A stretch of DNA of 64,000 nucleotides, from the NCBI RefSeq assembly GCF_001942345.1, contig NZ_MKKI01000042.1:186001-250000 (forward strand). The letters are read 5' to 3'. This DNA is from Corynebacterium sp. CNJ-954. GTDB taxonomy: Bacteria > Actinomycetota > Actinomycetes > Mycobacteriales > Mycobacteriaceae. Shown here in pieces: positions 53,861-58,339 of the stretch; position 1 is the first letter of the stretch; each line of letters opens with the position of its first letter. A program made the translations under genes and the position numbers. Below the pieces are notes generated by a model that saw only the letters and a list, made by a program, of their open reading frames with translations, ran no database searches and had not been told where the DNA came from.

Positions 53861-55687
53861 CTACTTCGAGGTGTAGATCCAGGCGATGTCGTCGGCGAAG
53901 TTCTTCGACACGGCATGCCGCTTCACCTTCATCGACGGGGTGACTTCGCCGTCATCCTCGGTGAAGTCCCGGGCACAGATCCGGAACTTCTTGATGCCCT
54001 CGGAGTGCGAGACGGTGTCATTGGCCTCGTTGATCGCGTCCTGGATCTCCGTGCGCAGCACGGGGTTCTTGGCCAGCTCCTTGACCGGGGTGTCGGCATT
54101 GATCCCGTTACGTTTGCGCCAGCCGACGAGGGCCTCCTCGTCGAGGGTGATCAGCGTGCCGATGAACTTCTCGTTGTCGCCGACCACCATGGCCTGGGAG
54201 ATCAGGGGCGCTGAGCGCAGAATGTCCTCCAGAGGTCCGGGAGACACGTTCTTACCACCGGCGGTGACGATGATCTCCTTCTTCCGTCCGGTGATCTTCA
54301 GGTGCCCGGTGGGCAGGAGTTCACCGAGATCACCGGAGATCACGAAGCCGTCCTCGGTGAACGACTCCTTGGTCGCCGTCTCGTTCCCCCAGTACCCGTC
54401 GAAGACGACGGTGCCCTTCATGAGGATCTCACCGTCGTCGGCGATCCGGATGGTGTTGCCGCCGACCGGCTTGCCCACCGTGCCGATGATGTTGTCCGGC
54501 TCGAAGTTCACCGCGATCGCCGCGGTCGTCTCGGTCATCCCGTAGCCCTCGTAGATGCGCACGCCGATGCCCCGGAAGAAGTGCATCAACTCCGGGTTCA
54601 ATGCGGAGCCGCCGGAGATGCAGTACTGCAGTTCCCCGCCCATCGCGGCCTTGACCTTGCCGTAGACGAGCTTGTCGAAGACCGTGCGCTTGATCTTCTG
54701 GCCCACGGTCGGGCCCGATGCCGTGTCGAGGGCCTTGGAGTACTCCACTGCGGCCTTCTCTGCCAGAGGGAAGATCTTGGCCCCGAGGCCGCCGCCTTCG
54801 GTGGCTTTGGTCTTGACACCGGCGTGAACCTTCTCGAAGACGCGCGGCACCCCCAGAATCAGCTGCGGCTGCGAGCGCTGGAACTCCGGGACAAGGGTGG
54901 ACATGTCCGCCCAGTGGGACTGGGTGGCCCCGCCCAGTGTCGCCGCCAGTGACACCGCACGGGACAGGACGTGCGCCAACGGCAGGAATGTCAGCGTCCG
55001 GTTGCCCTCCACGGCGATGCCACCGATCGGGTGGGTCAGGATGGCCCGGGCCTCGCCCAACCAGTTCGAGTGCAGCAGCCTGCAACCCTTGGGCCGCCCG
55101 GTCGTGCCCGAGGTGTACACCAGGGACGCCAGGTCAGAGGACTTCGTGTTCGCGATGCGCTCCTCGACGACATCGTCTGAAACGTCCTTACCCTCGGCGA
55201 CCAGGGTACCGACAGCATCCTCGTTGAAGGAGAGCACGCGGTTGAGGTGGGCTGTCCCTTCGACAGGCTCGCCGTCCTTGACGAAAGTACGGAGGCGGGT
55301 CGCATGCCCGGACTTCTCGGCGATACCCAACTTCGCACCCGAGTCCTCGACGATCCACTCACACTGCGAGGTCGACGATGACGGGTAGATCGGCACGGAG
55401 ACCGCCCCGGCCGCCATGATCGCGAAGTCCAGCAGCGACCACTCGTAACGCGTGTCCGACATCAGCGCGACGCGGTCGCCGGGCTCCACACCGTTGGCGA
55501 TCAGGCCCTTGGCGACGTCGTAGACCTCCCGGAGAAACTCGTCCGCCCGCACGTCGACCCACTCGAACTTCCGGGGACGGCTGTACAGGATCGTCTGCGG
55601 GCGCTTCAGGGCGTTCTCCCTGAGCACGGTCAGACAGGTCTCGCTCTCGCCGATGGTGTACAGCGCCTCCGAGGAGTACTCCTGCAT
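53861..55687 (-). CDS. fadD: Long-chain fatty acid--CoA ligase (FadD15-type)
   Basis: 608 residues. It adenylates long-chain fatty acids and transfers them to CoA. AMP-binding motif LVYTSGTTGRPKG at about residue 195, ILGVPRVFEKVHAGV, GYGMTETTAAIAVN and the GRKKEIIVTAGGKNVSP hinge; MKVKRHAVSKNFADDIAWIY ends the protein with the conserved catalytic-loop lysine region. It is closest in layout to FadD15 (Rv2187). Single gene with its own terminator and a 5' leader containing a perfect inverted repeat. Membrane-associated by function. Confidence 0.93.
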   Translation of the reverse strand: MQEYSSEALYTIGESETCLTVLRENALKRPQTILYSRPRKFEWVDVRADEFLREVYDVAKGLIANGVEPGDRVALMSDTRYEWSLLDFAIMAAGAVSVPIYPSSSTSQCEWIVEDSGAKLGIAEKSGHATRLRTFVKDGEPVEGTAHLNRVLSFNEDAVGTLVAEGKDVSDDVVEERIANTKSSDLASLVYTSGTTGRPKGCRLLHSNWLGEARAILTHPIGGIAVEGNRTLTFLPLAHVLSRAVSLAATLGGATQSHWADMSTLVPEFQRSQPQLILGVPRVFEKVHAGVKTKATEGGGLGAKIFPLAEKAAVEYSKALDTASGPTVGQKIKRTVFDKLVYGKVKAAMGGELQYCISGGSALNPELMHFFRGIGVRIYEGYGMTETTAAIAVNFEPDNIIGTVGKPVGGNTIRIADDGEILMKGTVVFDGYWGNETATKESFTEDGFVISGDLGELLPTGHLKITGRKKEIIVTAGGKNVSPGPLEDILRSAPLISQAMVVGDNEKFIGTLITLDEEALVGWRKRNGINADTPVKELAKNPVLRTEIQDAINEANDTVSHSEGIKKFRICARDFTEDDGEVTPSMKVKRHAVSKNFADDIAWIYTSK

Positions 55688-55858
55688 GTCTCTCCAATCA
55701 CAGTCTTGTCAAGGGGTAGCCCGGCTCACACCGGGGAACCCGGTGTGTTCCGGTGCATGATCCTAGCCGATTCCTGTATCGGCATAAGCAAAAACGGAAT
55801 TCCAAGGGAAATCCGGGGAACACTTCACGCTGCAGTACAGAGTTGGACCAGGAGGCAC
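55688..55858 (-). promoter_or_regulatory. fadD promoter and leader with operator-like inverted repeat
   Basis: CACACCGGG-GAA-CCCGGTGTG at 55727-55747 is a perfect 9-bp inverted repeat. TAGGAT (55760-55765 on the minus strand) with TTATGC 16 bases further upstream forms a promoter whose start would be near 55752, so the repeat lies at the beginning of the transcript. It may be an operator of a TetR-type fatty-acid regulator, or a leader hairpin. Confidence 0.55.
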
Positions 55859-55945
55859 TCAGAAGAGGGAGGTGACCAACCACACCACGACGAGCAGAAC
55901 GATCAGCAGAATGAGAGCCTGCCTGACCCTGGAATGGTGTTTCAC
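55859..55945 (-). CDS. 28-residue membrane protein, coupled to the gene upstream
   Basis: Tiny frame translating as MKHHSRVRQALILLIV then LLVVVWLVTSLF: a basic N-terminus and one transmembrane helix. The GTG at 55945 overlaps the stop of the upstream 71-residue gene (GTGA) and is preceded by GAGAAGGAGAGAACCG, a strong ribosome site, so expression is likely. It resembles small membrane peptides found beside envelope or fatty-acid genes, but has no recognised family. Confidence 0.65.
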   Translation of the reverse strand: MKHHSRVRQALILLIVLLVVVWLVTSLF

Positions 55946-56157
55946 CGGTTCTCTCCTTCTCCACGGGACGGATCATCCACGGGCGCGAACGCCCGTTCCT
56001 CGTCCTCGGTCGCGGGTAGCGCGCCGAACGCCACCTTGATCATGACGACGGCCGCAAGCGAGGCCAGCAGCACCAGAACGACCAGCGTCAACGGGGTCTG
56101 CAGCCAGAGAGGCAGGTCGAGGACCCATTGTTCAATGCCGTCAGTCACAGCAGACAA
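55942..56157 (-). CDS. Small membrane protein (71 aa)
   Basis: 71 residues: amphipathic start (SAVTDGIEQWVLDLPLWLQT), one transmembrane helix (about 22-46, PLTLVVLVLLASLAAVVMIKVAFGAL) and an acidic cytoplasmic tail (PATEDEERAFAPVDDPSRGEGENR). No known family. Translationally coupled to the 28-residue membrane peptide downstream, suggesting a two-component membrane unit. It lies 26 bases after the M3 peptidase stop and may be read from that gene's promoter. Confidence 0.7.
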   Translation of the reverse strand: MSAVTDGIEQWVLDLPLWLQTPLTLVVLVLLASLAAVVMIKVAFGALPATEDEERAFAPVDDPSRGEGENR

Positions 56158-56183
56158 GTTTACCTTCCGTGTGAGCTACAGGC

Positions 56184-58339
56184 CTAGTCCGTCCCCAGTC
56201 CGTCGACATCCATTGACCCGGCCAGCCCCCGACGGCGCAACAACGGTTCCACGCTGCGTTGTTTCCCCCGGAACATCCAGAAGGCGTCGTCGTAGTCGAT
56301 GGTCGCACCCCGGGACAGGATCATCCGCCGGAACCGGTCACCGGCGAAACGAACGTCGTCCGGGTCAATATCGGCGACGGCGCCGGGACGGTCTCCCGCG
56401 CCGTCGCCCCGGGCGGCGTCGGTGTCGACGAACCCCTCGAAACCGTCGGCGTCGAGAACCTCCGCCCAGAGGTAACTCCAGTAGTCCGCTGAGTATCCCC
56501 CGGCGAAAATATGGTTGAAGTAGGCCGAGGAATACCGCGGTGCCAGAGCCTGCAGCAGGTCTGCTCCGAATCCTGCGGCCTCCAGGGCCTCTTTCTCGAA
56601 GGCTGCGACATCGGTGACTGCCGCCGCCTCCCGGGTGCTGAGACGGTGCCACGCCAGATCCAGCCAGCAGGCCGCCAGGTACTCCGACGTGGCGAACCCC
56701 TGGCCCCAGGCTGCCTGCGCCCGCACCGCGTCCACCATCTGCTGCGGCAACTGTTCACCGGTGTCCACATGCCGGGCGTAGTTGCTGAGGATCTCCGGCT
56801 CCAGAGCCCAGTTCTCGTTGATTTGACTGGGGAACTCGACGAAGTCCCGCGGTACGTTGGTCCCGGACAGGCTGGGGTACCGGACGTCAGAGAGCAGCCC
56901 GTGGAGCGCATGCCCGAACTCATGGAAGACGGTGGCGACCTCATCGGGCGTGAGCAGGGCCTGTTCACCCTCGGCAGGTTTCGCGATATTGAGGACGTTC
57001 ACCACGACGGGCGTCTGCCCCAGCAGGTTGTTCTGTTCGACGAAGCTGCTCATCCACGCCCCGCCGCGCTTGGTCGGCCGGGCGTACATGTCGGTGAGGA
57101 GAAGACCGACCGGTGCACCCGGACGCACAGGGTCATCCTCGGCCTCCCTGACCTCCCAGACCTGCACATCGGGATGATAGCCCTTGAGGTCCCCACGTCG
57201 CTCGACCGTGATGCCGTACAGGCGGTGGGCGGCGAAGAACGCACCGTCGCGCAGTACGCGCTCCAGGGGGAAGTACTTCTTCAGTTCCGCTTCATCGACG
57301 TCGAGTTCCTCGGCCCGGAGTTTGGCGGCCCAGTACGGCCAGTCCGCCCCGGCCACATCGTCTGCAGCATCCGTACCCGCCTTGTCCACGGCTTTCTTGT
57401 ATTCCCCGGCAGCGTTCGCCACGGCGGCAGGAGTCAGCTTCCCCAGCAGGTCATCGACCTCGGCGAGCGAACCGGCGGTCTCCGCCTCCGCGACGAACTC
57501 CGCATGGTTCGCGTATCCCAGCAGCTCGGCGCGGCGTGCGCGTAACCGGACGATCTCAAGCAGAACCCCGGTGTTGTCCGTCTCACCGCCGGCCCCACGG
57601 CGCAGCGACGCGTCGTGGATACGGGCACGGGCCGCGGGTTCTTCGAGTTCCTCGAGCACCGGTTGCACGCTCGGCAGCCCAGCCGGACGAGCCAGCCGTC
57701 CTTCCCCGCCGCCGCCGCGTCCTCCGCCAGGCGGGACCTGTGCGTGTCGCTCAGCCCGGCGAGCTCGTCCTCGTCGGTGAACAGGACGGCGCCGGCTTCG
57801 GTCGCAGCGACCAGGTTGCGGCCGAACCGGGTCGAGAGTTCCGCGAGTCGCGCGTCGATCGAACCCAGTTCGGTCCGTCCTGCGTCATCGAGAGCCGCAC
57901 CACCGCGCCGGAACCGTCGCAGCCAGTAGGTCAGCAGCGCCTCGTTCTCACTGCCCTCCGGCTGCGTCGGAAGTGAGTTCACCCGGGCGAACAGGCCCGG
58001 ATCAAGATTGACACTGCTGATGTGCTCGGCGAGTTCGGGGGCCACCGTCTCTTCGACGGCGACAATGTCGTCACTGGCGTCTGTACCCGAGTAGTTGAAG
58101 ACGATGGCGAGGACACGGTCGAGCAGCTGGCCGCTGGCTTCGAGGGCCTCCATCGTGTTCTCCCAGGTGGGCTCCTCCGGGTTGGCGACGATGGCCGCTA
58201 TCTCCGCCTCATGGTCGACGACTCCGGTCCGGAACGTCGGGACGAGATCGTCGACGGAGATCGCGGCGAAGTCCGGAAGTTCATGGTCGAGTTCAGAGGG
58301 GGCGAGCAGCGGGTTCTGCTGGGTGTTGTGACCGGTCAT
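56184..58339 (-). CDS. dcp: M3-family peptidyl-dipeptidase (Dcp-like), frameshifted near 57677
   Basis: About 718 residues if repaired. Zinc metallopeptidase that removes C-terminal dipeptides or degrades oligopeptides. The C-terminal frame (from about 57680 to 56184) contains FHEFGHALHGLLS (HExxH with Glu further on), PSQINENWALEPEILSNYA and the helical cage. The N-terminal frame (58339 to 57680) begins NPLLAPSELDHELPDFAAISVDDLVPTF. It breaks after GWLVRLG; adding one G at 57677 gives GWLVRLGLPSVQPVLEEL, the family text. Signal peptide absent, so cytoplasmic. Start at GTG or ATG 58339. Confidence 0.88.

Follow-up and report, generated by a model that had tools for sequence, protein, structure and literature searches.

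The two tiny membrane proteins that we label A (the larger) and B (the smaller), encoded in a 64,000-nucleotide stretch of DNA from Corynebacterium sp. CNJ-954 that was analysed as a whole (the window), turn out to belong to an old gene pair that is nearly always adjacent in mycobacteria, corynebacteria and their relatives. From the sequences, we lean towards the view that A and B form a two-subunit, antiparallel two-helix membrane module able to keep a partner on the outer side of the membrane.

The pair and its surroundings in the window

The genes lie on the minus strand in the order Dcp-type M3 peptidase, A, B, fadD. Protein A (56157..55942, minus strand) is read as an ORF of 71 amino acids from a TTG at 56157, or of 68 amino acids from a GTG at 56148. 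Since the TTG is retained by the two nearest relatives only, and the in-frame GTG three codons further on is more widely common, the start of A is uncertain between these two lengths. The protein opens with a short segment, GIEQWVLDLPLWLQ, on the predicted outer face, which is followed by one transmembrane helix and an acidic tail. Protein B (55945..55859, minus strand), a 28-residue ORF with a GTG start, has a basic N-terminus and then a transmembrane helix that runs to its C-terminus. The GTG of B and the TGA stop of A overlap as GTGA (55945..55942, minus strand), an arrangement read in the sequence that is likely to couple their translation. Seven bases before the start of B, and within the end of A, the purine-rich GGAGAAGGAG (55962..55953, minus strand) is the likely ribosome-binding site of B, and comparable purine-rich stretches precede B in near relatives. 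An earlier note on this DNA had described two tiny, coupled single-helix membrane proteins with a ribosome site before the smaller one; the two ORFs (68 or 71, and 28 residues), the overlap, both helices and the purine-rich stretch were confirmed, and the proteins are conserved. In simple scans of 55600..56400, neither a sigma-70-like promoter nor a terminator-like site was found.

Upstream, the Dcp-type M3 peptidase gene (56184..58339, minus strand) has its stop 26 bases from the TTG of A, and downstream a gap of 171 bases separates B from the gene for a fadD-type acyl-CoA ligase (55687..53861, minus strand); both neighbours lie outside the conserved module. The Dcp gene is split in the window by a one-base frameshift near 57650-57680 (minus strand), which is either an assembly error or a real lesion; in two close relatives (L316 and L317) the gene is a single open frame of 740-749 codons. 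The gap between B and fadD holds a perfect 9-bp inverted repeat at 55727-55747, reading CACACCGGG-TTC-CCCGGTGTG on the minus strand, and folding of the 173-base stretch beats that of 198 of 200 shuffles. Nine relatives lack this repeat between B and fadD; two of the nine have other, shorter repeats there.

Conservation of the pair, selection and changing neighbours

When the sequence of A alone served as the query, 92 of 201 genomes of the window's genus gave a match (E 0.01); profiles of A and of B matched 190 and 193, respectively, of the 201 sampled genus genomes (E 0.1). To count pairing, the 150 best places listed for each profile were compared, with 119 genomes common to both lists: in 117 of these, with both best places among the matches listed, A lies ahead of B on the same strand, no more than 700 bases away, and in the other two the best places of A and B are separated by 2.6 kb and 8.4 kb. 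A further twenty loci from the genus, 11 of them Pks13-negative and nine with weak B scores, all carry A and then B, with A resting on a profile match in three. Among the eight genus genomes that gave no match to the B profile, three (G094, G138 and G167) proved on reading to have a B-like ORF behind A; the others are G092, G108, G111, G131 and G151. Within the genus, B is 26-31 residues long, or 37 to 99 residues with an N-terminal extension, and its helix always lies at the C-terminal end. Several of these loci (L265-L269, L271, L272, L289 and L294) have a long extension, mostly with DPREGLWDPE before KRKRALPKS[RW]V.

Across the family, the B profile matched 246 of 251 genomes, 22 of which belong to the window's genus, and 28 of 31 genera (E 0.05). 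The five genomes that it missed, from three genera, all have A; a B-like ORF follows A on reading in G210, G216 and G241, and in G203 and G233, both of one genus, no recognisable B lies within about 600 bases. For mycobacteria, a scan with a mycobacterial A from which the best 80 of 291 relatives were used (most labelled Mycobacterium, Mycolicibacterium or Mycolicibacter) yielded A followed by B in 79 loci by pattern and in the remaining one by reading. One of these records (L230), titled as a Bifidobacterium breve MAG, carries a mycobacterial-type locus and is probably a misbinned contig. Such near-universal pairing in the sampled genomes makes a joint function of A and B likely.

The conservation of the 28-codon frame, on which the earlier note had staked its reading, extends from these genome counts to the pattern of substitution. 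Over 79 mycobacterial loci, pN/pS is 0.41 in the frame of B, whereas the other two frames of this DNA give 0.84 and 2.57; the substitutions are concentrated in third codon positions. The median dN/dS is 0.29 for B (21 codons, 79 mycobacterial loci) and 0.17 for A (44 codons, 77 loci), and among ten B sequences near that of the window it is 0.32, with 24 of 45 pairs usable. B thus evolves as a protein, under purifying selection.

The expectation that the overlap would be kept in relatives was borne out in part. A four-base NTGA overlap is common, being found in 14 of 30 genus loci and, when the most upstream start codon is taken, in 55 of 79 mycobacterial loci (B start at -4; a further 7 of 79 start at -1). 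It also occurs in 7 of 7 loci from f4, one of the other families of the order that we label f2, f4 and f14, the window's own family being f1. It is not universal, however: about half of the genus loci have short spacing or another overlap instead, and just one of 13 f14 loci has NTGA.

A link of the pair to mycolic acids was considered and rejected. Of the 201 genus genomes, 14 gave no Pks13 match (E 1e-60), and all 11 of these that were fetched keep A and B, so that mycolic-acid synthesis is not required for keeping the pair. The helix tryptophan of B is missing in ten of these 11 loci (L254-L263) and present in L264. Since some Pks13-positive loci are also without it, and the ten represent few clades, we claim no link between Pks13 and this residue.

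The position between fadD and an M3 peptidase, also put forward in the earlier note, is a local feature. Dcp precedes A in 29 of 30 genus loci, the window included, and fadD lies within about 1.5 kb after the pair in 12 of 30, but most other genera have neither gene next to the pair. In several genomes A lies within a long open frame; these frames were considered as Dcp-A fusions and rejected, being out of frame with Dcp. Outside the genus, 14 of 20 larger loci have near the pair both a trehalase-like gene in divergent orientation and a substrate-binding protein of the sulfate type, and a lepA-cluster gene is present in 11 of the 20; NCBIfam served to identify the neighbours in L119 and a lepA member, the trehalase score lying under the family cut-off. 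The 80 mycobacterial loci have a trehalase-like DNA match in 75, the substrate-binding protein in 79 and both in 74, and in the f4 loci a HemW-type gene (cluster d12) directly follows the pair in four of seven, with a lepA-cluster gene upstream in six of seven. No neighbour among those seen is common to all loci. Because the neighbours differ between clades while the pair stays, we regard A-B as the unit.

We take the Rv2402/Rv2400c gene order of M. tuberculosis to be the mycobacterial context of the pair, and Rv2401A, between these two genes, to occupy the place of A, as the trehalase-like and substrate-binding-protein counts in the mycobacterial loci suggest. Rv2401A is presumably annotated as a 'possible conserved membrane protein' with no function given, and we know of no annotation of B at this locus. 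Two papers treat Rv2402 and MSMEG_4535 as trehalose genes (PMC6606615, PMC5371599). Among the titles and abstract openings searched, none described the A-B pair, and Rv2401A gave one unrelated match, a docking paper with those letters in a ligand code.

A ribonuclease fusion in another family of the order

Over 150 genomes of the order, the B profile listed 20 f1 genomes and nine others, all from f14, and the A profile gave 53 matches, comprising 19 from f1 (G221 was missed), 18 from f14, 15 from f4 and one weak match from f2. All nine f14 matches to B, which were found before A was searched there, lie directly behind A. A chance match to a ribonuclease anchor was rejected as a reading of these nine, because A directly precedes each of them. 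In 11 of 13 fetched f14 loci, a ribonuclease Sa-like enzyme is anchored at its N-terminus by the B helix (tblastn). Pfam found PF00545 in all three f14 ribonucleases scanned; among solved structures, one of them is closest to RNase Sa3 (E 1e-26), and what we take to be the active-site Glu, Arg and His of the ribonuclease are present at the aligned positions. The fusion, seen in f14 only, supports both the reality of B's frame and an outward C-terminus.

Barstar is encoded in 13 of 13 f14 loci by tblastn with an f14 barstar, and in 11 of 13 by looser gene clustering; Pfam found PF01337 in all three loci scanned. In two f14 loci (L344 and L345), a free 30-residue B follows A and stops 52-59 bases short of the barstar gene, and the ribonuclease domain has no match, which implies that helix and enzyme are separable; the barstar there is possibly an orphan immunity gene. 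Among six proteins scanned from the window (A, B and the products of four ORFs next to them), Pfam found neither PF00545 nor barstar. The ribonuclease domain had no match in 20 f1 or 80 mycobacterial loci, and tblastn detected barstar in none of the 20 f1, 80 mycobacterial and seven f4 loci.

Measured with a profile of free B against shuffled sequences, nine ribonuclease anchors score 4.0 to 9.2 sd above their own shuffles, and the two free B proteins of f14 score 4.2 and 5.1 sd above theirs. Six of the seven f4 peptides, free and 31-32 residues long, were scored in this way and lie 0.3 to 2.1 sd above their shuffles, with no likeness to B beyond composition; all seven overlap A, and they are probably B, an assignment by position and size alone. 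At the level of the class, A is present in at least 36 of 394 genomes, all from f1 and f14 (E 1e-5), a lower bound since the f1 genomes G121 and G221 were missed and no f4 genome matched.

A candidate membrane module and competing accounts

Each protein has one strong hydrophobic segment, the best 19-residue means being 2.79 for A and 3.09 for B, and the charges that flank these segments are biased in opposite directions. Lysine and arginine are richer after the helix of A in 98 of 100 rows, with two ties, and richer before the helix of B in 83 of 98 rows, with 15 ties and no reversal. By the positive-inside rule, an indirect guide to topology, A is therefore predicted to be N-out/C-in and B N-in/C-out, and the secreted-type ribonuclease on the C-terminus of B agrees with the latter. 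AlphaFold2 models A (67-residue input) as a short helix over residues 2-9 and a long one over residues 13-42, with block means of 90-97 over residues 11-40 (20-row alignment). No PDB chain is significantly related to A or B: up to E 10, the mycobacterial A profile found only two AcrZ sequences, with values no better than chance (E 0.67 and 0.91), and a wider A profile did not recover AcrZ. In Pfam, the best scores were those of DUF997 for A (15.6 bits, cut-off 26.3) and DUF2116 for B (11.6 bits, cut-off 26.8), and NCBIfam has no family for either protein.

Given that A, B, their order and their tight spacing are constant and that their predicted topologies are opposite, a two-helix module is the simplest account. 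In the arrangement that we favour, A and B would be made from one message, often by termination-reinitiation. A would span the cytoplasmic membrane from an outer N-terminus to an inner C-terminus, and B would run in the other direction, its basic N-terminus lying inside and its C-terminus on the outer face. Inserted side by side as an antiparallel two-helix unit, they would scaffold or anchor some other component on that face. The RNA-cutting enzyme on the outer end of B in f14 suggests such an anchoring role: the item held there would be the ribonuclease Sa-like domain that continues from B, with its inhibitor barstar encoded close by, and in mycobacteria and corynebacteria, whose B stops at the membrane, the partner on which the pair acts would be a separate one. 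A bolder form of this idea, which we offer tentatively and with some doubt, is that A-B is an ancestral membrane display module of the order, a two-helix base with B as an interchangeable outer-face mount. In f14 this mount would carry a ribonuclease kept in check by barstar, forming a toxin-immunity set tethered at the surface; in mycobacteria and corynebacteria the bare base would be kept under selection because it mounts a separate envelope protein.

AcrZ, CydX and MgrB are small single-helix accessory membrane proteins, and A and B resemble them in size, in having one helix and in being easily overlooked. It is a real possibility, though short of our preferred reading, that A and B likewise act as small regulatory accessories to a single larger membrane machine that is conserved, such as a transporter or a respiratory or envelope enzyme, with the ribonuclease fusion as a side branch. 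Their single helices, the lack of an enzymatic domain and their near universality in the sampled family fit this, and AcrZ gave the only PDB matches of the mycobacterial A profile; those matches are not significant, however, and vanish with the wider profile, and no constant membrane-protein neighbour was seen. A and B also differ from these regulators in being two coupled genes of opposite predicted topology with no known client. The f14 gene order of A, B-ribonuclease and barstar could instead mark the pair as the remnant of a secreted ribonuclease system of the barnase-barstar kind that has lost both enzyme and inhibitor in mycobacteria and corynebacteria. We consider this unlikely. The f14 loci do encode enzyme and inhibitor (PF00545, PF01337) behind A, with the helix of B as anchor, and the two loci without the enzyme still have B and barstar, but the f1 and mycobacterial loci have A and a bare helix only, with no match to either partner; purifying selection on free B speaks against mere decay, and with a free B present throughout f1, and probably in f4, acquisition of the enzyme by f14 is no less simple an explanation.

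A membrane-tethering role of A and B for the Dcp peptidase, for instance in signal-peptide clearance, seems very improbable, even though Dcp lies directly upstream in nearly all of the 30 genus loci and is also found there in a further genus (L095, M3 by Pfam; L120, same cluster). In 24 of the 25 loci L094-L118, including L112 of the window's own genus, no Dcp match lies within about 1.5 kb upstream of B, and in four of the 20 larger loci the Dcp-cluster gene is 2 to 6 kb upstream rather than adjacent. We give least credence to B as a regulatory leader peptide or type I toxin-like peptide. It is indeed a short hydrophobic peptide upstream of other genes, but its amino-acid sequence is conserved, its pairing with A is constant, the downstream genes change, it can be fused to a folded domain, and the scanned region around the pair has no terminator-like site.

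A study of M. tuberculosis reports 50 small ORFs coupled to annotated genes (PMC11133741), and B may already be in such published lists. A protein of 25-28 residues in nearly every sampled genome of the family, which includes the mycobacteria and presumably the corynebacteria, with the same partner gene next to it, makes a strong candidate for an envelope component that has escaped notice. Its natural fusion to a secreted ribonuclease indicates which side of the membrane the end of B faces and offers an easy handle for probing the module in safe laboratory species.
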